Source of the DNA: Actinomycetes bacterium
GTDB lineage: Bacteria; Actinomycetota; JAHEXW01
Direction of reading: 5' to 3'
DNA: 64,000 bases
NCBI GenBank assembly: GCA_023251915.1
Contig: JAHEXW010000005.1
Span: forward strand, 1 to 64,000
The notes beneath the pieces are model-generated. The model searched no databases and was not told where the DNA came from. It saw only the letters and a list, made by a program, of their open reading frames with translations. The translations under genes were made by a program, and so were the position numbers. How positions within the stretch are numbered: position 1 is the stretch's first letter; each line of letters opens with the position of its first letter. Below, in pieces: positions 1,964-20,824 of the stretch.

Positions 1964-2603
1964 TCCCTGTCTCCCCTTCGACTTCTGTGATGGCGCTATC
2001 CAGGCTGTCCAAGCGCCGTTCCAAATGTCGGAACATTTCGGCGACCGGATCCGGCAAACGCTCGTGATGCAGGTCAGTGCTGGGAATCTGTCGGCCGCTG
2101 TGCACCACGAACCGGCCCGGCACTCCGACGACCGTTGAGTTGGGCGGCACTGATTTGATGACGACGGCCCCCGCTCCGACATTCGAGCCGGAACCGATGG
2201 TTATATCACCCAGCACTTTCGCGCCGGCCGCAATCACCACGTCTGATTCAACGGTCGGATGACGTTTGCCTTTGTCTTTGCCGGTTCCGCCCAGTGTGAC
2301 TCCTTGGTAGATAGTAACATTGTCGCCGACGATGGAGGTTTCACCGACAACGACACCCATACCGTGGTCGATGAAGAAACCGCGCCCGATTTTCGCGCCC
2401 GGATGAATCTCTATCCCGGTTGCAAACCTAGTCCATTGGCTGGTTAATCGAGCCACAAGTCGAAGGTGAAGGCGCCAGAGCCAATGCGCGTAGCGGTACG
2501 CCCAAACAGCATGCAAACCTTGGTTCGTAAGAAATATCGTCAGACCCGAACCGGCGGCCGGATCGCGTTCTCTGGCTAATCTGATATCGGAGGATATGCT
2601 CAT
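1953..2603 (-). CDS. cysE: serine O-acetyltransferase
   Basis: Hexapeptide repeats, [32 protein letters not shown]. Confidence 0.95.
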
Positions 2604-3076
2604 GCCTTCTCAAGCAGGGCCACGGCTTGGGCGGCGGCGCCTTCTCCACGCCCGGCGAACCCCATGCCTTCCGTTGTCGTCGCTTTGATGCTCACGCGGG
2701 CCGCATCAATGCCCAAAGCGGCGGCGATATTAGCCGCCATCTCGTCTCTATATTTTCCGACCCTTGGTGTCTCCATGATTAAGATGGTGTCGACGTTCGC
2801 GACCGCAAAGCCCAAATCGCCGACCAGTTGCCCCACGCGCGCTAATAGATCCAGGCTGGAGGCATTCTTGAAGGCTGCGTCTCCCGGCGGAAAATGCTGT
2901 CCGATATCGCCGGCGCCAGCCGCGCCTAATACCGCATCAGCCACAGCGTGGGTCAGAACATCGGCGTCCGACCAGCCCTCTAGCCCTGTGGCATGCGGCA
3001 GAGTAACGCCGCCCAGAATCAATGGCCGGCCGGCTGCCAAACGGTGTGCATCATATCCGATACCTATCCTAGTCAT
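2600..3076 (-). CDS. ispF: 2-C-methyl-D-erythritol 2,4-cyclodiphosphate synthase
   Basis: [39 protein letters not shown]. Confidence 0.96.
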
Positions 3077-3078
3077 TC

Positions 3079-3780
3079 TTAAGTCTCCCCTCCCGCCAGG
3101 CGATCGTTAATTATCGCCGCGGCTATGACCATATCTATCGGGGTTGTAATCTTAATATTCTCCTCCAATCCGGGAATAACGCGGATCGGATGATTAATCT
3201 TCTCGATGAGGGTGGCATCGTCCGTGCCGTAGAATTTAGCCTGCTTGGCTACCCGGTGGGCGTGAATCAAAACATCGGCGCGAAAAGCCTGCGGGGTCTG
3301 GATAGCCCACATATGACCGCGGTCGATCGTATATTCGACCACTTCTTCTTTGGTTACTCTCTTAATTGTATCTTTAACCGGTATCCCCGGAACGACGGCC
3401 GGCCAGTGTTTTGTCTCTGCGACCGCTCGCTCAATCAGCGCGGGCGTCACCAGGGGCCTGGCCCCGTCGTGAACAACAATCACGGTTGTATCTGGCGGCA
3501 ACACCTTCAAGGCATTGCCGACGGAATCCTGCCTGTCGCGCCCGCCCACCACATACTTTACGACTTTTGCAAAACCGTAGGCTTCGACAATATCAGTCCG
3601 CACCATATCCATGTCTTTGGCTTTGCCGACAATGATAACCGCGTCGATGCTGTCCGCCGCTTCAAACGCGGCTAAAGTGTGAGCCAAAACAGGCCGTCCG
3701 GCGAGAAGGAGCAGTTGTTTATTGGTAGGAGAGGCCATCCGCGTACCGCGGCCCGCGGCCGCGATTATCGCCACGTTCAC
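3079..3780 (-). CDS. ispD: 2-C-methyl-D-erythritol 4-phosphate cytidylyltransferase
   Basis: AAAGRGTRM...NKQLLLLAGRPVLAHTL; VHDGARPLV. Confidence 0.95.
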   Translation of the reverse strand: MNVAIIAAAGRGTRMASPTNKQLLLLAGRPVLAHTLAAFEAADSIDAVIIVGKAKDMDMVRTDIVEAYGFAKVVKYVVGGRDRQDSVGNALKVLPPDTTVIVVHDGARPLVTPALIERAVAETKHWPAVVPGIPVKDTIKRVTKEEVVEYTIDRGHMWAIQTPQAFRADVLIHAHRVAKQAKFYGTDDATLIEKINHPIRVIPGLEENIKITTPIDMVIAAAIINDRLAGGET

Positions 3781-4826
3781 TTCTTCCGCCTCACAAAAAT
3801 CATTCGGCCAGCTGGCGTCTGGAGAACGCTTGTGACGATTGTCTTGAGGTCCTTGCCCAACAGTTTCTTGCCGTCTTCGACGACAACCATTGTGCCGTCA
3901 TCAAGATAGGCGACGCCCTGGTTAGCCTCTTTGCCTTCTTTGATGACCTTTACTTCCATTTCCTCGCCCGGTAAGACTATCGCCTTAAGTGCGTTGGCCA
4001 ACTCATTGACGTTAAGAACCTTTACCCCCTGCAGGCGAGCAACTTTGTTGAGGTTGTAGTCAACTGTGATTACCGTGCCGTCGACTTCTTTGGCCAGATG
4101 GACCAGCTTGCTGTCAACGCCCGCAATGTCCTTGTAGTCGCGCTCCATTATCTCGACAGACCCGACTCCCTTCTTCTTGAAGCCATTGAGAATGTCCAGC
4201 CCGCGCCTACCGCGTTGACGCCGCAGCGAATCAGATGAGTCGGAAATCAACTGAAGCTCATCAAGAACAAAGCGTGGAATTATCAACGTGCCTTCCACGA
4301 ATCCCGCCTCAACGATGTCGATAATGCGGCCGTCAATAATCGCGCTGGTGTCGACAAGTTTGGGGCTGGAGCCGCGGCGCCCATCGCCCGGTTTCGCTTT
4401 GCCCATCTTAAACAAGACCGCCAAGTCGTCACGTTTGGTAAAACCGATCAGCAGCCCCGCGCCGCCCAGAACAAAGAATGCGATGACGACAAACCAGGTG
4501 CTGTAAGGCAAGAGAACCAGAGCGAACGAGAGAAAGAACGCGGCCAGCAGACCGATAATGAGTCCGGCCACGGAAAATAGGATATCCGACCCGGAATACC
4601 GGTCGAGTTTTGATTCGAGGGTTTCGAGAAGTTCCGCAAAGGCCCGGCCGAAGATACCGCCCAGGACATAGCCCGCCCCGCAGAATATGGTGATGATCGA
4701 CAGTATGATCAGTGCCCGCAGAGTGATGGAACTGGTCAAAGAGACAGCGCTGATAAAATCGTTGCCGCTTTCCCAACCTGCGATGGCGCCGAATATAATA
4801 AAGATAACGCGAATAAAGACAATCAA
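3777..4826 (-). CDS. membrane-anchored PIN/TRAM domain protein (YacL-like)
   Basis: N-terminal TM segments, then LVDTSAIIDGRIIDIVEAGF PIN domain and C-terminal TRAM-like region; upstream of ispD. Confidence 0.88.
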   Translation of the reverse strand: MIVFIRVIFIIFGAIAGWESGNDFISAVSLTSSITLRALIILSIITIFCGAGYVLGGIFGRAFAELLETLESKLDRYSGSDILFSVAGLIIGLLAAFFLSFALVLLPYSTWFVVIAFFVLGGAGLLIGFTKRDDLAVLFKMGKAKPGDGRRGSSPKLVDTSAIIDGRIIDIVEAGFVEGTLIIPRFVLDELQLISDSSDSLRRQRGRRGLDILNGFKKKGVGSVEIMERDYKDIAGVDSKLVHLAKEVDGTVITVDYNLNKVARLQGVKVLNVNELANALKAIVLPGEEMEVKVIKEGKEANQGVAYLDDGTMVVVEDGKKLLGKDLKTIVTSVLQTPAGRMIFVRRKK

Positions 4827-4919
4827 AAGATGGCGCTCCCGCTATTCAATTTTGGCCACACAAAAACCAAACCGGCAGATAAAAGATGAAAAGAATGAAT
4901 GAACCGGTCGTGGTGTTTC

Positions 4920-5393
4920 TTACAGCGCGGCTTCGATAGCGCGAATCGCTTCGCTCTCTTCTACGCCGCGGGCGAAAACAAGTTCACTGATGAGGGTTCT
5001 GCGAGCCTGCTTCAATAGGTCCTTTTCCTTGGTCGAAAGGGCTTTGGATCGTTCAATCGAACTAAGATCCCTGACAACCTCGGCGACCTCGCGAATATTG
5101 CCGCCGCCCAGTTTGCGCCAATTCTCCTTGAATCTCTGGTTCCAATTGGCGGGGAGGTCGGAACATTCCGCCCCCAGGACTTCCATAACCCCATCGATTT
5201 CAGTCGGTTCGATAACGTTGCGTAAGCCCAGTTCTCCGGCATTGTCAACAGGCAACATAATGGTGATATGTCCATAGAACGGTTTGATGATGAAGTATTG
5301 CCGTTTTTCGCCCAGCACCCATTTGTCTTGGATGCCCTCGATGACTGCCGCTCCGTGCGGAGGACAAACTACCCTGTCGCCACTTTTGAACAC
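4920..5393 (-). CDS. carD: CarD family transcriptional regulator
   Basis: MFKSGDRVVCPPHGAAVIEGIQ... CarD/TRCF-interacting domain. Confidence 0.9.
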   Translation of the reverse strand: MFKSGDRVVCPPHGAAVIEGIQDKWVLGEKRQYFIIKPFYGHITIMLPVDNAGELGLRNVIEPTEIDGVMEVLGAECSDLPANWNQRFKENWRKLGGGNIREVAEVVRDLSSIERSKALSTKEKDLLKQARRTLISELVFARGVEESEAIRAIEAAL

Positions 5394-5436
5394 GCTACCG
5401 CCCCCTTGATGTGCTTATTCTAGCACAATGGGCATT

Positions 5437-6498
5437 TTATGTCACATTAGATTCGGATAAACGACGTAAGCCATCCTGCAAAATCCTGGCGCGCGCGACG
5501 CCAACACCGTCGACCGCTTCCAGTTGTTTGCGGCCCGCCCGGACAATGTTGTTAAAGTTGCCGAACCGTTCAACCAGCTTTGTAATCACGGGTTGGCTGA
5601 TGCGGGGTATACGAGCGAGCATCCTGTATCCTTTAGGCGTCACATACTGGGCGAGCGCCTCGTTGGTCCCGGCGTAACCCATTGATCGGGCGATAACCGG
5701 CAGCTCCAGCAGCTCCTCGTCCGTCAATGCCGACAGGCGCGTTTGCATGTCGGCCAGAGAACAGTTCTTCTTAAGCCGGCAGTAATCCTTAAGGAGGTTA
5801 TCGTGTTCCGTTTTAACGCCTGCCGTCATTTCCTCTAGTTGCATTTCGACCAGGCGACCGTCAACGCCGAGTTCGACGACGAATCCGTCTATCTCCCTGG
5901 ATATTCGTTCAACCATCTCAAAACGCTGAACACAGAGCGCTACATCCTCAAGTGCCGCCAAACCTTCAAACTCCAAGCTGGTCAAGGTGCTCAACACACT
6001 CTGCAGCCGGGCCGTATATTTTTCCAGCGCCTGCAGGGCCTGGGTGGCGCGGGACATTACCAGCCGGAGATCGTCCAGGCTGTATTTATCGCCATCCATA
6101 AAAAGGAAGATAGACCCCATTTCTTCGGAGACGCACAGGACCGGGGCGCCGGTTTGTTTGGCGACGCGCTCGCTGGTTCGGGAGCGTGTACCGGTCTCCC
6201 GGGACGTTATTGAAACATCCGGCGTTAGATGTACGTTGGCGCGTAAGATACGACTATAGTCGGAGGCAACGATTATGGCGCCGTCCATCTTCGCAAGCTC
6301 GTAGAGCCGGCTGGGCAGAAACTCGCTGTTGATCTCGAATCCGCCTTGCGCCAGCGACATTACTTCCGGCCGGTTGGACAAGACGATCAGCGCGCCATGC
6401 CGGGACGCGATGATGCGTTCGCAACTCTGGCGAAGCGGCGTTCCCGGCGCGACTTTTCTTAAGACGGCCAGCAAACGTTCGTTACTCTTTGTCTCCAT
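5437..6498 (-). CDS. disA: DNA integrity scanning protein / diadenylate cyclase
   Basis: DAC domain MDGAIIVASDYSRILRANVHL...SRETGTRSRTSERVAKQTG; C-terminal HhH; next to radA. Confidence 0.95.
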   Translation of the reverse strand: METKSNERLLAVLRKVAPGTPLRQSCERIIASRHGALIVLSNRPEVMSLAQGGFEINSEFLPSRLYELAKMDGAIIVASDYSRILRANVHLTPDVSITSRETGTRSRTSERVAKQTGAPVLCVSEEMGSIFLFMDGDKYSLDDLRLVMSRATQALQALEKYTARLQSVLSTLTSLEFEGLAALEDVALCVQRFEMVERISREIDGFVVELGVDGRLVEMQLEEMTAGVKTEHDNLLKDYCRLKKNCSLADMQTRLSALTDEELLELPVIARSMGYAGTNEALAQYVTPKGYRMLARIPRISQPVITKLVERFGNFNNIVRAGRKQLEAVDGVGVARARILQDGLRRLSESNVT

Positions 6499-6529
6499 GA
6501 GCGCCTCCTGCTAGTCCCTAATACGCGGC

Positions 6530-7891
6530 TTAAGCCTTCTTCAGCAGCGCGATAGCTTCCTTAATTGTAGCGGCCTCGATAACACGGATTCCGGCCACTT
6601 TGGATTTGGCTGCGCCTCGCGGAGCAATCGCCTGTTTGAATCCCAAACGAGCCGCTTCCTTAAGCCGCCTGTCGGTCTGGCTGACAAAACGCAGTTCGCC
6701 ACCTAAGCCTAATTCTCCGAACACGACAGTATCAGCCGGAGCCGGCGCGTCTCTGTAGGCCGAGGCGACCGCTAGGGCTATACCCAAGTCGGCGGCGGGT
6801 TCGGAAATCTTCAATCCCCCGGCCGCGCTGACATATATGTCCTGGCCGCCTAGTTTTAAGCCGGCCCGGCGCTCAAGGACGGCCGTCAGCAAGGCGATCC
6901 TCTGGTAATCCAGACCGGCCGCTACGCGACGCGGGTAGGCCAGCGACGTCGGGGCCGCCAGAGCTTGCAACTCAACAAGGAATGAACGCGTCCCTTCGAT
7001 CGAGGCGACGACAACACTGCCGGGCGTTCCCGTTTGCCGGTCCGATAGAAACAACTCCGAAGGATTGGACACCTCACGCAGGCCTCCGTCACCCATTTCG
7101 AAGACACCGATCTCGTCCGTCGAGCCGAACCGGTTCTTTACGGCACGCACGATGCGATGACTCTGATTTCGCTCGCCCTCAAAATATAGAACGGTATCTA
7201 CCATATGTTCCAGGACCCGAGGGCCGGCGATGGCGCCTTCCTTGGTGACATGGCCGACAATGAACACCGCTGTCCCGCTTTCTTTGGCGAGTGTCATTAG
7301 CCTGTGAGTGCACTCTTTAACCTGGCCAACGCTGCCCGCCGTGCCGGACGCCGCGGCGTCAGACATTGTTTGAATGGAATCGACTATCAAAACACGAGGC
7401 CCGCCAGCGGCCGCTTCTTCGATGACGCGATCGATGTCGGTCTCGCTCATGAGCATCAGGGTGCCGCCTGTCAGACCCAGACGTTCGGCTCGCAAGCGAA
7501 TCTGACGCGCGCTCTCTTCTCCGGAAGCAATTAGGACGGAATTTCCGGCGCCGGCCAGATATTGTGCGACCTGAAGCAGGAGCGTCGATTTGCCGATACC
7601 CGGCTCGCCGCCGATTAAGACGAGCGAGCCCGGAACGATGCCGCCGCCCAGAACGCGATCAAGCTCGGCGTAGCCGGCGGAAAAACGGGGCGTCTCGGTT
7701 AAATCTACGTCGGCTAACGGCTGGGGATAGGAAGCGCCTGCCGGACGCGTACGTGCCGGTTGCTTTTTTGCGTCTGCAACGGCCTCTTCAATCAGTGAAT
7801 TCCAGGCCGCGCACTCGGGGCAGCGACCCATCCAGCGGGGTGAGACATAGCCGCAATCGGTGCAGCGAAACGTTGTCTTAGAGGCCGGCAT
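6530..7891 (-). CDS. radA: DNA repair protein RadA
   Basis: N-terminal CxxC zinc finger FRCTDCGY..GRCPECAAWNSL, Walker A GGEPGIGKSTLLLQ, KNRFGSTDEIGVFEM. Confidence 0.96.
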   Translation of the reverse strand: MPASKTTFRCTDCGYVSPRWMGRCPECAAWNSLIEEAVADAKKQPARTRPAGASYPQPLADVDLTETPRFSAGYAELDRVLGGGIVPGSLVLIGGEPGIGKSTLLLQVAQYLAGAGNSVLIASGEESARQIRLRAERLGLTGGTLMLMSETDIDRVIEEAAAGGPRVLIVDSIQTMSDAAASGTAGSVGQVKECTHRLMTLAKESGTAVFIVGHVTKEGAIAGPRVLEHMVDTVLYFEGERNQSHRIVRAVKNRFGSTDEIGVFEMGDGGLREVSNPSELFLSDRQTGTPGSVVVASIEGTRSFLVELQALAAPTSLAYPRRVAAGLDYQRIALLTAVLERRAGLKLGGQDIYVSAAGGLKISEPAADLGIALAVASAYRDAPAPADTVVFGELGLGGELRFVSQTDRRLKEAARLGFKQAIAPRGAAKSKVAGIRVIEAATIKEAIALLKKA

Positions 7892-7900
7892 AGGCGTAAG

Positions 7901-10390
7901 TTAGTCCTTCTTCTTTGAAGCAACCAGTTTCTCTGGTTTGCCCTCTTTATTTTTAAGGAAGACGATTTCGTTATCTATGGCGTCGACAGTGATCGTCTCG
8001 CCGGCTTTCGGCTTCGCCTTTAATATACTTTCGCTTAGCGGGTCTTCGACCAGCCGTTGCAACGCCCGGCGCAACGGCCTGGCGCCCAGCGCCGTGTCGT
8101 AGCCCTCTTTGGCAAGCAGAGCCTTGGCGGCCGCGGTCAACTTGATCTTAAGACCCAGTGAACCCAAACGAGCTTGCAGGCCGGCGACCATAATATCGAC
8201 AATTGCCCGGATATTTGCGGGCGACAGCTCGTGGAAGACAATTATGTCGTCGACTCTGTTTAAGAATTCCGGCCGGAAAGCGCGCTTTAACTCGGCGGTA
8301 ACATTCTCTTTCATCTTGTCATAGGAGATCTGGCTGTCGTCTTCGGCGCCAAAGCCCATCCCGTGTGCCCGCTTCAGATCCATGGAACCGAGATTGCTTG
8401 TCAACACGATTATCGCGTTCCGAAAATCTACGGCGTGACCTTGGTTGTCCGTCAGACGCCCGTCTTCTAGTATCTGCAGCAATATGTTGAACACGTCGGG
8501 ATGCGCCTTTTCTATCTCGTCCAGCAGGACAACAGAGTAGGGACGGCGCCGCACCGCTTCCGATAGCTGACCGCCCTCCTCATAACCGACATAACCCGGC
8601 GGCGAGCCGACCAGGCGAGAGACGGAATGCTTCTCCATATACTCACTCATGTCCAGCTGTATCAGCGCGTCCTCGTCGCCGAACAGGAATTCGGCGAGCG
8701 TTCGGGCCAGCTCTGTCTTGCCCACTCCCGAAGGCCCCAGGAAAATAAAGGAGCCGGTTGGACGGCGCGGATCCTTTAATCCGGCACGGCTGCGGCGAAT
8801 CGCGCGGGACACCGCTTTGACCGCTTCCTCTTGACCCACGATGCGCATATGGAGAGCGTCTTCCATGCGCATCAGCTTCTCGCTCTCTTCCTCGGTCAGC
8901 TCCTGCACCGGAATCCCGGTCCATTGACTAACGACGGCCGCGATGTCCTTTTCGGTCACCGAGACGCGGCGACCGCCCGCTTCCGGTTGTTTCCACTCCT
9001 TCTCCATCTGAACCTTTTCGAACAGCATCTTCCGTTCGCGGTCGCGGAGATTGGCCGCCTTTTCGTATTCCTGCGCCTCGATCGCGGCTTCTTTCTCCTG
9101 GCGCAGTCGCTTCAAGCGGTCCTCCATCTCCCGGAAATTAGGGGGAGCCGTCATGCTTATGATCTTGAGCCGGCTGGCTGCTTCGTCTATTAGGTCGATC
9201 GCCTTGTCCGGCAGAAATCGCTCGGATATATAGCGTTCGGCCAGATAGCCGGCCGCGGTCAGCGCCTCGTCCGTTATGGTTACACCGTGATGCGCTTCGT
9301 AGCGGTCGCGCAACCCCTTGAGTATCTCGACAGTGTCCTCGACCGTTGGCTCACCGACGAGAACCGGCTGGAATCGTCTTTCCAGGGCGGCGTCTTTCTC
9401 CAAATATTTGCGATACTCGTCCAATGTCGTCGCCCCAATAGTCTGGAGCTCGCCTCGCGCCAGCGCCGGTTTCAGAATGCTAGCCGCGTCAATTGCGCCT
9501 TCCGCCGCACCGGCGCCAACCAGGTTATGCACCTCGTCGATGAAGATGACGACATCTCCCCGGCTGCGGATTTCTGCCAGGAGCTTCTTTAGCCTCTCCT
9601 CAAAATCGCCGCGATAGCGGCTGCCGGCCACTAAAGCGCCAAGGTCAAGCGTGTATAGTTTCTTGCCTTTCAAGCTCTCCGGTACGCGTCCCTGGATTAT
9701 GGCCTGTGCGAAGCCCTCAACGACGGCGGTCTTTCCGACTCCAGGCTCCCCGATCAGAACCGGATTATTTTTGGTCCGGCGGGAAAGGATCTGCATTACC
9801 CGGTCGATTTCGTTCTTCCGGCCGATCACAGGGTCCAGTTTGCCGTCCTGAGCCATTTGGGTCAGATCCCGGCCGAACTGGTCGAGCAGTGCGCTCTTGC
9901 CAGCCGTTGCGCCTTCCTTTGAGGTTGGCGAGGGAGAGACGCCTGTCGCCGTGTAGGCTCCAGACAGTTGTTGGATTACTTCGTTGCGGACTTTTTCCAG
10001 GTCAGCGCCAAGGTTAATTAAGACACGAGCCGCCACGCCCTCGCCCTCGCGGATCAGCCCGAGCAATATGTGCTCCGTTCCGATGTAGTTGTGACCCAGC
10101 TGCAACGCTTCGCGTAAGGACAATTCGAGGACCTTCTTGGCCCGAGGCGTAAAAGGTATATGGCCGATGGATGTTGCTTCGCCGCGTCCGATTATCTTCT
10201 CGACCTGCAGGCGGACATCATCGAGACTGATGTCCAGGTTTTCCAGAGCCTTAGCGGCGACGCCTTCGCCCTCAAGAATCAAACCAAGCAACAGATGCTC
10301 GGTTCCGATGTAGTTTTGATTGAGCATTCTGGCTTCCTCGCGAGCCAGAACGACGACGCGGCGGGCGCGTTCGGTAAAACGTTCAAACAT
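7901..10390 (-). CDS. clpC: ATP-dependent Clp protease ATP-binding subunit ClpC
   Basis: Two Clp_N repeats, two AAA+ modules ([27 protein letters not shown]), UVR motif. Confidence 0.97.
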
Positions 10391-13162: not shown

Positions 13163-14680
13163 CTAGTCGGACACTCCGTTGGCCCCGCGGCCGGCGCCGT
13201 GAATCGGACTGCCGTTCTTGCCTTGCTCGTGGCAGACCTGACACGCCCATATCCAGTAGTTGTCTCCCTGGAATTTCATAGTTATCTCAGCGTCCGCGGC
13301 GTTGCGGGTTACATGCTCCGCGTGAGTACTGTTGTGACAGGCCTCGCAGAATATCCGGCCATTCATGCCCTCGCCCGCGGTGTTGTTAAGTACAGAGTTC
13401 CGGTAAAGGGTGTTGGCATTTTCGGCATAAAGCGAGCCGTGACAGTCACTGCACTTAGGCTCGTCCAGCCAGGGCCGCCGGCCTTTCTGAAGCGCTGTTG
13501 TCATCTTCACTAAATCACCGTGGCAATCGACGCAGCTCTTGCCGGCGCGCGCCATGATGCCCCGCAAGCATTGCGTATTCGGCCCGGGATGGCAGTTATA
13601 GCAATCCGGTTTCAAAGGCGACTTCTGCATCTTGTCTTTGTGCGAGTTATGCATCGCCAAAGATAGGCTCTCGACGCCCGGCTTTCCGGCCATCTTTAGG
13701 GCGTTGTCCGAATGACACTCGGCGCAGGCGTGCGGCGTGCCGGCTTGCTGGTCGGCGACTAATGTTCCTCCGTTGAGTTTGTCGTGTTTTGCCAGGATAT
13801 CCAATTGCGGATTGGCCGTGCCGTGGCAGATTGAACAACCCAGTTCAGTCGATACAGGCGCCACGACGTTGGCGGTCTGCAGAGTGTTTCCTTTGGCATC
13901 TTTGACGGTTATGACCGCCGTCCCAAAGGGATCCCATGTACCGTCGTCGTCATATGGGCTGACCGGGATGGCGGCCGCCGCATAGGTAATCCCGTCGCCC
14001 GTTGGCTTCATAACGCCGAACGGGCCGTTTCCCGCCAATCCAACGTTGGGCGTTCCGTTCCACCCGAACTTGGCGGCATATTGCCAGAAATTCGTCTGTG
14101 ACGAGGGATTCTTCTTTTTGGGAAACTCATAGGTGACGGTAATGTTCTTTGTCGCGCCGTCCTCGGAACTACGCGCGAAGACCTGCGCGTAAAGGTTGTT
14201 GGCGGGGGGCAGTATTGCGAAATATGAATAGTCATCCTGGTCGCAATGCATCCCGAGATCGTTCCAGGCGAGAATTGTGTATTGCATGCCGGCCGCCGGA
14301 ATACTTTGGGTGCCGTACGCCTTGGTTAGGTGCCAGTCGGCCTTTGTGATCATAGCAGTCGCGATTGTTGCACGTTGCGTGGTCGCAGCGTAGTTGGCCG
14401 CGCTAACCGATAGGGTCATTTTGCCGATAGGCGCAACTAGGCGGTAAACGCCGTTCGCGTTGGTTGTCGCAGTTTGACCGCCGGCGCTAATCGTGGCGTT
14501 TGCAATGCCCGCGCCGGTCTCGATATCTCTCACGGACCCGTTAACAACGCCCTTGCCTGTGACTGGCGGTGGATTGTTCGTTGTTGTGTTGGTGAGAGAC
14601 AGACCGTTCCTGCAGCCAGCTCCGGCTACGGTCAGCAAGCCCGCCAGCATAACATAGACCAGAAATAATGACTTTTTCAT
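13163..14680 (-). CDS. multiheme c-type cytochrome lipoprotein with carboxypeptidase-regulatory-like N-terminal domain
   Basis: Seven CxxCH motifs (CSICH, CAECH, CYNCH, CVDCH, CSDCH, CEACH, CQVCH); signal sequence ending GAGC; GSVRDIETGAGIANATISAGGQTATTNANGVYRL. Confidence 0.85.
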   Translation of the reverse strand: MKKSLFLVYVMLAGLLTVAGAGCRNGLSLTNTTTNNPPPVTGKGVVNGSVRDIETGAGIANATISAGGQTATTNANGVYRLVAPIGKMTLSVSAANYAATTQRATIATAMITKADWHLTKAYGTQSIPAAGMQYTILAWNDLGMHCDQDDYSYFAILPPANNLYAQVFARSSEDGATKNITVTYEFPKKKNPSSQTNFWQYAAKFGWNGTPNVGLAGNGPFGVMKPTGDGITYAAAAIPVSPYDDDGTWDPFGTAVITVKDAKGNTLQTANVVAPVSTELGCSICHGTANPQLDILAKHDKLNGGTLVADQQAGTPHACAECHSDNALKMAGKPGVESLSLAMHNSHKDKMQKSPLKPDCYNCHPGPNTQCLRGIMARAGKSCVDCHGDLVKMTTALQKGRRPWLDEPKCSDCHGSLYAENANTLYRNSVLNNTAGEGMNGRIFCEACHNSTHAEHVTRNAADAEITMKFQGDNYWIWACQVCHEQGKNGSPIHGAGRGANGVSD

Positions 14681-14763: not shown

Positions 14764-16251
14764 TTACTCTTCCGAGGGTTTCGTTTTCAACTGTGGGAAC
14801 AAGATGACGTCGCGGATGGACGCGCTGTCAGTAACGATCATAACCAAACGGTCGACCCCGATACCGATACCGCCCGTCGGCGGCAGGCCGTGCTCGAGGG
14901 CCATGACGTAGTCCTCGTCCAGCTCGTGCGCCTCCTCGTCACCGGCGGCTTTGTTGGCCTGCTGGGCCTCAAAACGGGCGTGCTGGTCTTGCGGGTCGGT
15001 CAACTCGGAAAAGGCATTGGCAACCTCCCTGCCGGCGATAATCAGCTCGAACCGCTCGGTCAGCTCCGGATTACCGGGTTTCTTACGAGCCAAGGGCGAC
15101 GTTTCTAAAGGATAGTCAAAGACGAAGGTCGGTTGAACAATCAAATGCTCGACGTGCTTCTCGTAGATTTCGGTAATGACTGCGCCTTTGCCGGAATTCG
15201 GCTTCAGGTCCACCCGCATCTCGGCGGCCAACGCTTTCAGGTCGTCCAGGCTCATGTCAAACGACAGATCCTGCCCGGTATATTCCTTGACCGCGTCAAT
15301 CATCGACAGCCGGCGCCACGGCCGCGTAAAGTCGAGTTCCGTTTCCTGATACGTGATTTTGGTTGAGCCAGCCAGCTCCTCGATGACCCCGTTGATGAGC
15401 GTCTCAACCAATTCCATCATGTCTTGATAGTCGGCGTATGCCTGATAGGCTTCCAGCATCATGAACTCGGGATTGTGCTTAACCGAGATGCCCTCATTAC
15501 GAAAACTCTTGTTGATCTCGTATACCCTCTCTAGGCCGCCGACGATCAACCTCTTCAGATAGAGCTCGGGCGCTATACGCAGATATAGATCGGTATCGAG
15601 TGCGTTGTGATGCGTTATGAACGGTTTGGCCGCCGCCCCGCCCGGGATCGGGTGCAACATCGGCGTCTCGACTTCCAGGAAACCTTGCTCGTCAAGTATG
15701 CGGCGCAGTATGGCTATCGTCCGTGTCTTTTTGATAAACGTCTCTTTGACGTCGGGGTTCATAATCAGGTCAAGGTAGCGTTGGCGGTAGCGCGTTTCAA
15801 CATCCTTCAAACCATGCCATTTCTCCGGCATCGGCCGCAGGGATTTTGTCAGCAATTCGTAAGACGCGACTGCCACGGACAGCTGGCCGCGCTTGGTCTT
15901 GAAAACCTCACCCGTGACACCGACAATGTCGCCAATGTCATAACTCAGGAAGGTGTCATAAGCTTCTTCTCCCAAAGCGTCTGCTGTCAGATAGAGCTGG
16001 ACACGACCGGTCTTGTCCTGGAGTTCCGCGAAGCTGGCTTTTCCGTGGCGTCGCAACGCCATCAACCGGCCGGCGATGCTGACCACGTCCGCGGTGTGTA
16101 CTTCCGGTTCGATAGCGCCATAAGAAGCATCGATCTCAGCGACCAACCGGTCGCGGTCGAACTTTGATTTATAGGGATCGACGCCAGAGGCGCGAATATC
16201 GCTTAACTTCTGCAGCCGGTGAACGCGAAGGTCGTTCGGCTCATCTGTCAT
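14764..16251 (-). CDS. lysS: lysyl-tRNA synthetase, class II
   Basis: RYRQRYLDLIMNPDVKETF, SFRNEGISVKHNPEFMMLE, GIGIGVDRLVM. Confidence 0.96.
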   Translation of the reverse strand: MTDEPNDLRVHRLQKLSDIRASGVDPYKSKFDRDRLVAEIDASYGAIEPEVHTADVVSIAGRLMALRRHGKASFAELQDKTGRVQLYLTADALGEEAYDTFLSYDIGDIVGVTGEVFKTKRGQLSVAVASYELLTKSLRPMPEKWHGLKDVETRYRQRYLDLIMNPDVKETFIKKTRTIAILRRILDEQGFLEVETPMLHPIPGGAAAKPFITHHNALDTDLYLRIAPELYLKRLIVGGLERVYEINKSFRNEGISVKHNPEFMMLEAYQAYADYQDMMELVETLINGVIEELAGSTKITYQETELDFTRPWRRLSMIDAVKEYTGQDLSFDMSLDDLKALAAEMRVDLKPNSGKGAVITEIYEKHVEHLIVQPTFVFDYPLETSPLARKKPGNPELTERFELIIAGREVANAFSELTDPQDQHARFEAQQANKAAGDEEAHELDEDYVMALEHGLPPTGGIGIGVDRLVMIVTDSASIRDVILFPQLKTKPSEE

Positions 16252-16721
16252 TTTTTAATGTCCACGATCTTGTATTTGAGCGCGCCGTGCGGCAACTCTA
16301 TCTCGACCAAATCGCCGATCTCTTTGCCGACGATCGCCCTGCCGACCGGCGATTCATGAGAGATCTGCATCAAGTCGGGATCAGCCTCGAATGAACCAAC
16401 GATTTTGAACTCCTGGTTCTTCTTGGTCTCCATATCCCGCAGAATTGCTGTCAGCCCGACGCGAACATGTTTTAAGCCGCCCTTGTGCTCATCGACGATT
16501 TCAGCGTTGGCCAAAATATACTGGATTTCCGAGATTCTTCCTTCCGTGAAGGCCTGCTCGTTCTTTGCGTCTTCATATTCGGAGTTTTCGGAAATGTCGC
16601 CGAAGTCTTTGGCTTCCTTTAAACGCTGGGCGACCGCCTTACGACGTACGCCGATCAATTCTTTTAACTCGTTATCGAGCATTTCCTTGCCGTGGGTGGT
16701 TAATATTATTTCTTTGCTCAC
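16248..16721 (-). CDS. greA: transcription elongation factor GreA
   Basis: LTTHGKEMLDNELKELIGVRRKAVAQRLKEAKDFGDISENSEYEDAKNEQ. Confidence 0.96.
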   Translation of the reverse strand: MSKEIILTTHGKEMLDNELKELIGVRRKAVAQRLKEAKDFGDISENSEYEDAKNEQAFTEGRISEIQYILANAEIVDEHKGGLKHVRVGLTAILRDMETKKNQEFKIVGSFEADPDLMQISHESPVGRAIVGKEIGDLVEIELPHGALKYKIVDIKK

Positions 16722-16834: not shown

Positions 16835-17992
16835 TTAGGAAACTGTTTCCATTTCCCGCGCATTGGCGGCGGCAGTGCGGATTGCGCGTATCCTATCTTC
16901 CGTTAATGCTTTTTCGAAACTGCGGAAACCGGCCAGCTTGAAGCCGTGCCGCTCGGCCATCTCGGCAATCTCATTTACCTGCTCAACGGTTATGTTCTTG
17001 CCGATTGTGTAATCTTCATAGCGGCCCTCGAGGGCCAGGATCATCGTCTCAGCCATGCATGCCAGACTTTGACCAGGCGGCAAGCCGAAATCGAAGTTGA
17101 AATTAACTTGACCGGGAACCTGAACGACACCGCCGTCGATAACCAAAACGTCATCCCGGTTCTCAGCCACGGCTTCCGCCACATCTCGCGGCCGCGCGAC
17201 GTCACAGACAACGGCGCCCGCTTTAATGTCAAACGGGTTGATGATCTCGTCCACAGCGCTGGTCGCAGAGATGATTACATCAGCCCGGCGAACGGCCTCG
17301 GAAATATTTGTTGTTATTTCAACATTGCCGCCGCGTATCGCGTCTCTGACAACCTCTAGGCGACCTTCGTTGCGGCCTACCAGGATTGTCGTTCCGGCTT
17401 CCGCCGCCATTATGTGGGCGGCGATCTTGCCGATGCTGCCGGTCGCTCCGACTATGGCGACGACTGCCGTCGCCAGATCGATGTCCATGACGGCCGCGGC
17501 TTTGCGGGCTCCCTCGATCGCGGTCGCGACAGTATAGGTGTTGCCGGTGGTAACGGCAACGCGGCCGCCATCGGCGATGTCCTTGCCGCCCCCGCCGACA
17601 AGGGCGGTAAACGCACCCAGACCGACAATGCGGGCTCCTAGTTCCTCGGCGACCTCGCAACCTTTGATGATTTTCTTAACCACGAACTTCTCTTTTAGGT
17701 CAAGAATTTGGGACGGCAGCAGCGGGACGGCGATAAACCAGCCGACCGCCTCCTGGCCCGTCTTGGATTTGATACCTGTTATTTCGGAAAGAGCCCATGG
17801 TTTCTTGTGCTTAACAGCCCAGGCGACAAGTTTGTCAGGCAATTTTTCCGCGAACTTGTACTTACGCGTAATGCCGCCCATATCCAAAGGGTGAATGATA
17901 AACGCGAAACGAGCGACGTCAGGATTGTGATTTGCCTGCGGCTTCGGGGTTTTGGCTGGCTTGGGCGTCTTGGGAGTTTTAGGCTTCGGCAA
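16835..17992 (-). CDS. acyl-ACP reductase-like / predicted amino-acid dehydrogenase (Rossmann, COG5322-like)
   Basis: TTGNTYTVATAIEGARKAAAVMDIDLATAVVAIVGATGSIGK and LPPGQSLACMAETMILALEGRYEDYTIGKNITVEQVNEIAEMAERHGF resemble cyanobacterial long-chain acyl-ACP reductase from memory. TTG start at 17992 with AGGGTGG upstream is preferred over the ORF-track ATG at 18130. Lys/Pro-rich N-terminus. Confidence 0.7.
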   Translation of the reverse strand: MPKPKTPKTPKPAKTPKPQANHNPDVARFAFIIHPLDMGGITRKYKFAEKLPDKLVAWAVKHKKPWALSEITGIKSKTGQEAVGWFIAVPLLPSQILDLKEKFVVKKIIKGCEVAEELGARIVGLGAFTALVGGGGKDIADGGRVAVTTGNTYTVATAIEGARKAAAVMDIDLATAVVAIVGATGSIGKIAAHIMAAEAGTTILVGRNEGRLEVVRDAIRGGNVEITTNISEAVRRADVIISATSAVDEIINPFDIKAGAVVCDVARPRDVAEAVAENRDDVLVIDGGVVQVPGQVNFNFDFGLPPGQSLACMAETMILALEGRYEDYTIGKNITVEQVNEIAEMAERHGFKLAGFRSFEKALTEDRIRAIRTAAANAREMETVS

Positions 17993-18899
17993 AACGTTCC
18001 ACCCTGGGCTCGAAGCCGAGCTCCTTGAGGACTCGCAGATAGTCATCCGGAGTAATGGAATCGGCGTCTTTATCGAGTAGAGCGACGCAAGTCGCCTCCA
18101 TGACATTCGTGCCAAAGGACCGCCCGTCAAACTCCGGAGTCGTCGTCACCAGCAACATGACGCCGCGTGACTTCATGTCCTCGACATCCGAGGCGGTAAC
18201 CGTATTGGTAATTATCACCTTGCCGGTCATGTCAGCCGGCATGTACTTCTTGATAAACAGGTAATCGCCCGCGATAATGTCGGCTTCCCGGAAGTACTTA
18301 CCGTATTTGTCAACCGATTTCTTGTCCTGCTCCGACCCCGTCGGATAGAGGATTTTGAACGGCAGCTTGGTAGCAATGGGTAACAGGATGCGAGCAATCA
18401 TGGAGAATTTCTTCATGCTGCGGATGGCCACCGGGATACCGAGCCCGAAAATCAGATCGCCGAAAACCATCTGACATCCTGCCCCGTTCAGGGCATCCGC
18501 CATGCCGAACCGGTCGACGGCCGAAACCATCAAGACTTTCTTATCAACAAAATCGATTTCTTTTTCGTCCCTAAGAAACTCAATGGTCTTGCGCTCCAAC
18601 GTGTTCTTGAGTCCCGAGCCGTCCACCATGTCGCTGATTTTCGCGGCCTTCTTAAACTTCTTGGCCTCGCGTATCTTGTACCGCTTTCCGCCGGGGGCGA
18701 ACAGGTAGAGATCTATGCCGCCCAAACCGAACGCGTCGATATTGCCGTCCAAATCCTTAATCATTTGCTTAGCTTTCTTCACGTCGCCGTCTGTGCCAAC
18801 CCGTCTGATCTTAAAACTCTGACCCAGCAGCTCCACGTCAACCTCGTGGTCCCGCGTGGACGACCCGATACTGACGCTGACAACTTCTTTCTGTGCCAC
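17979..18899 (-). CDS. 'quinate 5-dehydrogenase-like' family protein, paralog 1
   Basis: MAQKEVVSVSIGSSTRDHEVDVELLGQSFKIRRVGTDGD...DAFGLGGIDLYLFAPGG; close paralog of the next ORF. Family name recalled from Firmicutes annotation, function uncertain. Confidence 0.6.
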   Translation of the reverse strand: MAQKEVVSVSIGSSTRDHEVDVELLGQSFKIRRVGTDGDVKKAKQMIKDLDGNIDAFGLGGIDLYLFAPGGKRYKIREAKKFKKAAKISDMVDGSGLKNTLERKTIEFLRDEKEIDFVDKKVLMVSAVDRFGMADALNGAGCQMVFGDLIFGLGIPVAIRSMKKFSMIARILLPIATKLPFKILYPTGSEQDKKSVDKYGKYFREADIIAGDYLFIKKYMPADMTGKVIITNTVTASDVEDMKSRGVMLLVTTTPEFDGRSFGTNVMEATCVALLDKDADSITPDDYLRVLKELGFEPRVERFAEA

Positions 18900-18922
18900 T
18901 CTTACTCACACCCTCTTCTGGT

Positions 18923-19849
18923 TTAGTTAGCCTTCTGGCCGGCCAATCGCTCCAGCCTAGGCTTAAATCCGAGCCTCTGTAATATATCGTAGTAATCGCG
19001 CGGCGTGACCTGGTCAGCCGGCTTATCCAGTAAGGCAACGCAGGTCGCCTCCATAACGTTTGTTCCAAACGAGCGGCCGTTGAATTCGGGTGTCGTGGTC
19101 ACCAAAAGGGACACACCGCGTTGTTTCATGTCAGTCACGTCGGACGCGGTGACCGTATTAGTTATTACTACTTTCCCGCGCATCCCCATGGGCATATATT
19201 TCTTTATGTACAGATAATCGCCCGCGATGATATCGGCCTCGCGAAAGTACTTGTCGTATTTCCCCGCGCTGATTTTTTCCTGCTTTTCGCCCGTTGGATA
19301 AAGGACCTGAAATGGCAGCTTGGTCGCGACTGGCAAGAACACTCTTGCCAACGCCCTGAACTGGCGCATACTGCGAACCGCGAGCGGCACTCCCAGACCG
19401 AATATCAGGTCACCGAACACCATTTCGCAACCGGCATCTGCCAAAGCTTCCGCCATTCCGAAGCGATCAACAGCCGATATCATCAGGCATTTCTTCCCGG
19501 CAAAATCGAACCCCTCGACGTCACTCAGGTAGGTGATCGTCGATCTTTCGAGCGTGTTCTTGAGGCCGGTGCCGTCCAGCATGGGTGATTTTGTTAATCT
19601 CTTGAATTGGTTGGCGGAACGGATGTTGCTGCGGCGGCCTCCCGGCCCGACCAGACAAAAACAAATGCCGCCCAGACCGAACGCCGCAACCTGGTCATCC
19701 AAATCCCGAAACATCTGCTTGGCTCGCTCGACATCGCCGTCCGTCCCGACCCGGCGGATCTTGAAGCTCTGGCCTAACAGCTCAACGTCAACCTCGTGGT
19801 CCCGGCTCGACGAGCCAATGCTTACGCTGACCACTTCTTTTTGCGTCAC
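18923..19849 (-). CDS. 'quinate 5-dehydrogenase-like' family protein, paralog 2
   Basis: VTQKEVVSVSIGSSSRDHEVDVELLGQSFKIRRVGTDGDVERAKQM; GTG start at 19849 matches the paralog N-terminus, SD GAGGTGA upstream. Confidence 0.6.
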   Translation of the reverse strand: MTQKEVVSVSIGSSSRDHEVDVELLGQSFKIRRVGTDGDVERAKQMFRDLDDQVAAFGLGGICFCLVGPGGRRSNIRSANQFKRLTKSPMLDGTGLKNTLERSTITYLSDVEGFDFAGKKCLMISAVDRFGMAEALADAGCEMVFGDLIFGLGVPLAVRSMRQFRALARVFLPVATKLPFQVLYPTGEKQEKISAGKYDKYFREADIIAGDYLYIKKYMPMGMRGKVVITNTVTASDVTDMKQRGVSLLVTTTPEFNGRSFGTNVMEATCVALLDKPADQVTPRDYYDILQRLGFKPRLERLAGQKAN

Positions 19850-20360
19850 CCTTCTTCTCACCTCGTCTAACAGAACGATACGCCCGCCTGGTCCGCTTGC
19901 CCGCGAATTCTGCCAGCACTTCCTCAAGAACTTCTTCTTTGGCCGGCGCGATGCCGATTATCTTTTTGTCCAAGACCGTCTCCAGCAACCGGTGCTCGGT
20001 CGCCGGCCCGAGAAATATTATAAAGTCGATGTCCTTCAGAATCGTCAGAACGCCCAGCGCGTCCTCGATACGGGTCATGCCATCCGCATTGATAAAGACG
20101 TGCTCAAAACCTAGATCGCGCGCGACACCGTCAACCCGCTCGGAATCAACCACACCTGATCCGATGAAGGCGATCTCTTTTGACTTGCGGACCTCCCCGA
20201 TGCCCTCCAAGTGAGAGATAAAGGACCGCTCGATGCCGAGCATCTTGGCGACTTCGGCCTGCGTCGATCCCGTCGAACGCAGGTCGAAGATTCTATCAAC
20301 CAGGGCGTTGGCGCGCTCCAGGCTTATGACTTTGTCTCCGATGGCGAATTCTTTTTTCAC
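19788..20360 (-). CDS. helix-turn-helix transcriptional regulator
   Basis: GSTQAEVAKMLGIERSFISHLEGIGEVRKSKEIAFIG; first gene of the paralog cluster, overlaps the next gene by 62 nt. Confidence 0.75.
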   Translation of the reverse strand: MKKEFAIGDKVISLERANALVDRIFDLRSTGSTQAEVAKMLGIERSFISHLEGIGEVRKSKEIAFIGSGVVDSERVDGVARDLGFEHVFINADGMTRIEDALGVLTILKDIDFIIFLGPATEHRLLETVLDKKIIGIAPAKEEVLEEVLAEFAGKRTRRAYRSVRRGEKKGDAKRSGQRKHWLVEPGPRG

Positions 20361-20444
20361 GCGGGTTATACCTCAAGACTCAAGACGGATTTTGTGCACA
20401 CATTTGTGAACAAGTATAGCGCCGAAAGCTAAGAGGGGTCAAAC

Positions 20445-20490
20445 GGGAGGTTGCTTCGCTCACTAACGTTCGCTCGCAATGACGTGGAGC
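20445..20490. repeat. dispersed palindromic repeat, copy A
   Basis: GGGAGGTTGCTTCGCTCACTAACGTTCGCTCGCAATGACG. Confidence 0.85.
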
Positions 20491-20512
20491 GTTTGTGATA
20501 GGTTTCCGTCCA

Positions 20513-20555
20513 GGGAGGTTGCTTCGTCGCTACGCTCCTCGCAATGACGGAACGA
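20513..20555. repeat. dispersed palindromic repeat, copy B
   Basis: GGGAGGTTGCTTCGTCGCTACGCTCCTCGCAATGACGG. Confidence 0.85.
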
Positions 20556-20824
20556 CGCGACTAGTTGTTTCTCGTCCAAATCAGTCTGAGGCCTTCGCGC
20601 CGTGGCGTGGGGGAGGATAGACAATTCCACTGAAAGTTGTGGAATCAAGGTGGGGGTGCGTGTCCTAAGACGAAGAGGTTCAGCGGCGGAGTCGGGTGCT
20701 GCGAGCCGTGAGAGTCAAGAACCAAGAATGTTGAATAGTAAGACCTGACCTCTTGGCCTGCGGCGTTTTGCAGGGAACTTGAGGCTTGCGCGCCCGAGTT
20801 TGAGGTGGCACATGTACGATTTGC

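Follow-up and report, generated by a model that had tools for sequence, protein, structure and literature searches.

The locus and the question

What is made by an operon in which a relative of cyanobacterial acyl-ACP (acyl carrier protein) reductase, AAR, stands beside a putative regulator and two proteins that no database model describes? This operon lies in a stretch of 64,000 nucleotides from an Actinomycetes bacterium (positions 1 to 64,000 of contig JAHEXW010000005.1, assembly GCA_023251915.1; the whole stretch is called the window below). On balance we favour the reading that the operon regulates itself and serves the first step of a route from acyl thioesters to amines. The original prediction, made from the window's sequence, had proposed four genes in one operon, and the positions of the open reading frames (ORFs), at or near the coordinates it gave, bear this out. 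All four genes are real, are read from the minus strand in the order regulator, Q1, Q2 and AAR-like gene, and overlap their neighbours or lie 23 bp from them. The features are as follows, Q being the name used here for the family without a model and HTH standing for helix-turn-helix:

20413..20442, minus strand: sigma-70-type promoter TTGACC-N18-TATACT, the -10 element of which abuts the operator
20390..20413, minus strand: operator with two tandem half sites, TTGTTCACAA / TGTGTGCACAAAA, pitch 12 bp
19788..20360, minus strand: HTH regulator, 190 aa, with an N-terminal helix-turn-helix and a C-terminal alpha/beta domain
18923..19849, minus strand: Q1, a diverged paralog of Q2, sharing 62 bp with the HTH gene
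17979..18899, minus strand: Q2, of a conserved family without database model, predicted two-domain Rossmann-type protein, starting 23 bp past Q1
16835..~17992, minus strand: predicted acyl-thioester reductase of the AAR/PigE type with a GATGSIG loop and the catalytic Cys in LACMAET
16248..16721, minus strand: greA, conserved downstream neighbour, context only and outside the pathway
14764..16251, minus strand: lysS, conserved downstream neighbour, context only

For the AAR-like gene we infer a TTG start, with which it shares 14 bp with the end of Q2; the longest mechanical ORF reaches 18130.

The AAR-like reductase

A resemblance of the last protein to cyanobacterial AAR had been suspected before, and it proved to be strong. 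Among PDB sequences the protein matches PigE (4ppm, E=1.3e-36) and cyanobacterial AAR (6jzq, E=2.6e-28), and the similarity covers the N-terminal, Rossmann and C-terminal parts (38-348 aligned to 6jzq, 25-358 to 4ppm). Glutamyl-tRNA reductase, by comparison, resembles it in the Rossmann domain only, as judged by an NCBIfam profile search. The NCBIfam model for PigE (NF053554) scores higher than that for AAR (TIGR04058), with 209 against 121 bits, and both scores are under the respective equivalog cut-offs of 850 and 449.7. The GATGSIG loop is found in this protein and in 33 of 44 homologues, close variants being present in nearly all others, and the Cys of LACMAET, which aligns to ACFAEAM with C294 of AAR, is kept in 43 of the 44. 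In AAR, C294 is the acyl-enzyme Cys (PMC7089970). Because both the catalytic Cys and the NAD(P) loop are conserved, we predict that the protein is very likely an active acyl-thioester reductase.

In cyanobacteria AAR (6jzq, PMC7089970) has the same Cys, a GATG(S/D)IG loop for NADPH and a similar length, but there it is partnered by aldehyde deformylating oxygenase (ADO) and the product is an alkane, whereas here the score stays below the TIGR04058 cut-off and an ADO is missing. The latter had been stated for the window and holds for the whole genome: no ADO (PF11266) was found in it, while the control, Synechococcus elongatus, was positive. An alkane pathway was therefore rejected.

At 12 more loci the third position is taken by a degenerate AAR without loop and Cys, a loss that requires five changes on the Q tree, at least three of them forced. 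The third-position genes of the Caloramator, Thermohalobacter and UBA8346 types had seemed unrelated and turned out to be such degenerate AARs; the 376-383 aa genes at this position in loci L056 and L086 (hhalign probability 30%) could not be assigned. Three or more distinct lineages have degenerate copies next to Q (L031:4611-5513, L049:1700-2602, L075:8937-9854, L098:5157-6050, L039:8922-9725, L051:8955-9743, L067:9018-9941 and L097:9069-9893). The genomes mostly contain a second intact AAR or an aminotransferase-AAR fusion as well, and the degenerate copies have the appearance of retained pseudoenzymes.

Conservation of the gene arrangement and co-occurrence

The original prediction was to be given up if the neighbourhood proved not to be conserved elsewhere. 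It is conserved: Bacillota and deep Actinomycetota share HTH-Q-AAR, as a rule flanked by coaX/dusB on one side and greA/lysS on the other, a recurrence across phyla that is far beyond chance. Among 80 genome loci with Q, the HTH gene is directly upstream in 48 and an intact AAR is present in 44, in 40 of them directly after Q; coaX, dusB, greA and lysS each occur in 45-49 of the 80. At one locus (L115, genome G094) the HTH gene is directly followed by AAR and Q is missing, while genus mates carry Q.

Co-occurrence was also counted in whole genomes. In the Bacillota phylum sample 154 of 200 genomes have Q, 136 have AAR and 133 have both, so that Q is present in 133/136 AAR genomes. The corresponding numbers for Actinomycetota are 24 of 199 for Q, 23 for a strong AAR and 20 for both (Q in 20/23 AAR genomes). 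Fisher's test gives p ~1e-20 or lower, a value to be read with the reservation that related genomes are not independent. The association persists when the genes are unlinked: genomes with a degenerate AAR, or with no AAR near Q, have an intact AAR elsewhere in 25 of 31 cases. A first test had given 4/4, although one of those genomes has an AAR next to Q. LuxC was considered as a general stand-in for AAR in genomes with Q only, and was dismissed since it occurs in 4/200 genomes. The Bacillota hosts had also brought a link to sporulation to mind, which was given up for Actinomycetota on finding no Spo0A in the 199 genomes of that sample.

The class III aminotransferase partner

The recurrent partner of these genes lies outside the window and was not part of the original prediction. 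Five Actinomycetota families carry, between Q and AAR, a gene for a class III aminotransferase and another for a START-domain protein, and in Geosporobacter the aminotransferase adjoins AAR. In Thermoanaerobacterium saccharolyticum HTH-Q-AAR and the aminotransferase are found on a single contig. Many Bacillota carry aminotransferase-AAR fusions, ORFs of ~870-940 aa in which the aminotransferase comes first in those checked, with the PigE order in one. Every Actinomycetota genome that has Q and AAR but no aminotransferase in the operon, the window's genome included, encodes an aminotransferase of the same clade elsewhere; in one family this unlinked gene neighbours those for a START and a PgsA-like protein. 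The copy in the window's genome is at G000:C28:20700-21932, on another contig, between rpsR- and rplI-like genes. The PigE model gives it the highest score (484 bits, against 313 bits for ArgD), and it falls among the aminotransferases that are linked or fused to AAR, separate from ArgD (SH-aLRT 96 and 98). No same-clade aminotransferase was found in the Actinomycetota genomes of the sample of 199 that have Q only. In these counts an aminotransferase was accepted at >300 bits, a threshold picked after the scores were seen.

Two related arrangements were observed in addition. In Geosporobacter (L157:5346-10916, L151) the genes after the aminotransferase and AAR encode two DUF2229/HGD-D proteins and an ATPase of the BadF type, which together resemble components of radical acyl-CoA dehydratases or of a plasmalogen-type reductase. 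A 9.7 Mb actinobacterial genome (G128:C1:1801247-1803784, L201) encodes an aminotransferase-AAR fusion without having Q; the fusion is probably a PtTamH-like enzyme of natural-product synthesis.

The regulator and its operator

An identifiable operator was likewise beyond the original prediction. A conserved site of the TGAGCACAAAATTGTGCACA type overlies the promoter of the HTH regulator. In the window, TTGTTCACAAATGTGTGCACAAAA follows directly 3' of TATACT in the operon's promoter, which ranked joint first, with 10/12, among the 7 consensus matches of this region. Of the 48 regions upstream of HTH genes, 39 contain tandem half sites of the TGAGCACA / TGTGCACA type, mostly at a pitch of 11-12 bp, compared with 2/240 shuffles. 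At >=14/16 matching positions the operator has a single match in the window, at the HTH-Q-AAR operon, and this is also the single one in ~1.39 Mb of the 1.42 Mb genome (~97%).

In other genomes the operator is found directly 5' of unlinked AAR genes (L147-L150), of aminotransferase-AAR fusions (L163, L164, L204), of an aminotransferase (L187) and of a LuxE-LuxC-aminotransferase operon (L188); for L150, L164 and L188 the distance was taken from the start implied by homology, not from an annotated one. In a single case, L074, it precedes a fabH-fabK-fabD-fabG-acpP-fabF operon which itself abuts HTH-Q-AAR. Because these genes share the operator, the HTH regulator is very probably in control of its own gene and, elsewhere among the lineages, of dispersed genes of the pathway, as far as can be predicted from such sites. 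The distribution of the operator is evidence for a functional link that is independent of synteny. The L074 fab operon (2227-7986) is a hint that the regulator also governs fatty acid synthesis, and at L188:300-3790, from Caloramator, LuxE and LuxC (fatty acid reductase) share the operon with the aminotransferase behind the HTH operator. For the C-terminal domain of the regulator the predicted model was too weak, and no significant fold match was obtained.

Two further observations concern the surroundings of the operon. Upstream of it (20446-20560) an intergenic repeat is present in two copies (CATTGCGAG...GAAGCAACCTCC), of a kind scattered through many environmental genomes. At 13163-14680 the window encodes a lipoprotein-like protein of 505 aa, whose numerous CxxCH motifs make a multiheme cytochrome probable.

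The Q proteins

Q1 and Q2 had been recognized as close paralogs, which agrees with their identity of 71-72%. The accompanying label 'quinate 5-dehydrogenase-like' fared worse: neither protein matches a Pfam or NCBIfam model at E<=10 or any PDB sequence, and the predicted fold alone is distantly of that kind. The family is well conserved, with 50-60% identity between phyla and 46 invariant columns, none of them Cys or His. The AlphaFold2 model is confident (pLDDT 90.9), and its Foldseek matches are weak yet consistent, pointing to a two-domain Rossmann architecture. They include sugar-binding proteins, malic enzyme, glutamate dehydrogenase, the shikimate/quinate 5-dehydrogenase AroE, and AAR, which has the top TM-score in the list (0.45). 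A recognizable AAR paralog Q is not: the hhalign probability is 0.2% and the fold similarity is weak (TMq 0.45). With AroE the Q model shares the broad architecture (2hk7, TM 0.40 to 0.44), and DGSGLKNT of Q may correspond in position to NTDGxGF of AroE; however, Q has no sequence similarity to AroE and lacks GxGxxG. At the position of the latter it reads SAVDRFGM with an invariant Asp-Arg, and for this reason classical NAD(P) binding by Q appears doubtful.

Since AAR rarely occurs without Q, the Q proteins probably prepare the substrate or handle the product for AAR. By analogy with ADO and AAR, a role as an adaptor is possible too. Literature searches on the family brought up nothing specific.

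The split between Q1 and Q2 predates the separation of the window's genome from its sister genome, in which Q2 is 98% identical and Q1 was not found. The Q1 branch is the longer one, and in its N-terminal domain Q1 departs from the family at several positions that are otherwise almost invariant (e.g. GICFCL, where others have GIDLYL). Q1 may be viewed as a second copy specific to this lineage, the function of which is possibly drifting.

Comparison with known systems

PigE of the Serratia prodigiosin pathway (4ppm) likewise combines an AAR-like thioester reductase with a class III aminotransferase, and it is the top NCBIfam score for both the AAR of the window (209 bits) and the aminotransferase of the genome (484 bits), although both values are far under its cut-off of 850. 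It differs in being one fused natural-product enzyme, while here the genes are separate, have Q and HTH partners and occupy a conserved chromosomal locus. PigE and PtTamH each unite both domains and convert thioesters to amines (PMC8341465, PMC9594044). PtTamH, from the tambjamine YP1 pathway, has an N-terminal transaminase and a C-terminal AAR-type reductase and makes fatty amines from acyl-ACP (PMC9594044); its domain order matches that of the Bacillota fusions. In contrast to the system studied here it is dedicated to a pigment cluster, and the passages of PMC9594044 considered here report neither a Q nor an HTH partner.

A more distant analogy, drawn for PigE in PMC8341465, is that with glutamyl-tRNA reductase and glutamate-1-semialdehyde aminomutase, in which a reductase hands over a reactive aldehyde to a pyridoxal phosphate enzyme; the substrate of that system is a tRNA, and the pathway leads to heme.

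Proposed mechanism and alternative explanations

The operon, the catalytic residues, the partner genes and the operator can be read directly from the sequences. In the mechanism proposed on this basis the HTH protein would bind to the tandem half sites that overlie the promoter of its own gene and would presumably repress the operon. With its conserved Cys the AAR-like protein would accept the acyl group of acyl-ACP or acyl-CoA and then reduce it with NAD(P)H to an aldehyde, a step we propose because of the conserved catalytic residues and the characterised relatives. The PigE-type aminotransferase (G000:C28:20700-21932) would then form a primary amine from this aldehyde and an amino donor. 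This second step is suggested by linkage, fusion, co-occurrence and shared operators in relatives, and is modelled on PigE and PtTamH (PMC8341465, PMC9594044). Q would belong specifically to the reductase and act on the acyl, aldehyde or amine intermediates of this route, which is the weakest step of the scheme. The links to lipids (fab genes, LuxE/LuxC, START, SCP2 and PgsA) favour a fatty chain without being proof of it. Of the original prediction of an uncharacterised reduction pathway, the part on the reductase holds up; the data speak for reductive amination, by a reductase and a class III transaminase as in PigE and PtTamH, more than for reduction alone.

Several points weigh against this scheme. 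Substrate, product and activity of its members are predictions from genes alone. The co-occurrence counts are not phylogenetically independent, and Q occurs without AAR in 21/154 genomes of the Bacillota and 4/24 of the Actinomycetota sample, so that Q has some independent role. In several lineages the AAR adjoining Q is devoid of Cys and loop. That the operator also controls the aminotransferase of the window's genome had to be discarded, since no site was found at this gene in the ~97% scanned; the link is here therefore one of phylogeny and co-occurrence only.

Shared ancestry of a conserved gene string could produce the joint occurrence of Q and AAR with no functional link, and the strong synteny with coaX-dusB-greA-lysS and the phylogenetic structure of the samples would agree with this. 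We consider it very improbable, because genomes in which AAR and Q have been separated still keep both, and the separated AAR, aminotransferase and fusion genes bear the same operator. It also appears quite improbable that the main role of the AAR-like protein and Q is to sense or regulate acyl-thioester pools on behalf of the HTH protein, reduction being secondary or lost. Q does lack a canonical NAD(P) loop, and degenerate AAR copies are retained beside it in at least three lineages, but the genomes with such copies mostly have a second intact AAR or a fusion, and elsewhere Cys and loop are strictly kept.

The product itself leaves more room for other views. A short or functionalised thioester, leading to a small amine or a cofactor precursor, would fit the varied substrates reduced by the AAR/glutamyl-tRNA reductase family, the coaX, bioY and birA genes adjoining the gene string and the closeness of the aminotransferase family to putrescine aminotransferase. 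We regard this as rather unlikely in view of the operator-bearing fabH-fabK-fabD-fabG-acpP-fabF (L074) and LuxE-LuxC (L188) genes, the lipid-binding START and SCP2 proteins and the PgsA-like neighbours; the coaX/greA/lysS context is weak evidence because the string is vertically conserved. Unlikely, too, is a pathway of reduction only, in which the fatty aldehyde formed by AAR is converted to an alcohol or ether-lipid precursor by Q or a different dehydrogenase, the aminotransferase being incidental here. While AAR homology, the distantly dehydrogenase-like fold predicted for Q and the operon of the window, which has no aminotransferase, would all be in line with this, AAR and aminotransferase are repeatedly linked and fused, Q has no GxGxxG, and the aminotransferase is present in all AAR-bearing Actinomycetota genomes but two, whose AARs are natural-product-like or diverged.

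Significance

The chemistry of the acyl-to-amine route is of a known kind, that of PigE and PtTamH in pigment biosynthesis. New are its wide and conserved distribution, the regulon with an operator and a companion family lacking any domain model: instead of belonging to pigment pathways, the pair of reductase and transaminase is a conserved, operator-controlled gene set in many anaerobes. Going further, we tentatively suggest a core regulated acyl-to-amine pathway across much of the Clostridia-type Bacillota, deep Actinomycetota and some Armatimonadota, which might lead to a membrane-associated long-chain amine or amino-lipid not yet recognised in these bacteria, with Q as a new enzyme family with its own chemistry and the HTH protein as a regulator of a new type, linked to fatty acid synthesis. 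If true, well-studied thermophilic fermenters would contain an overlooked amine or amino-lipid, genes labelled 'quinate 5-dehydrogenase' would receive a function, and thermostable enzymes for the production of fatty amines would become available.

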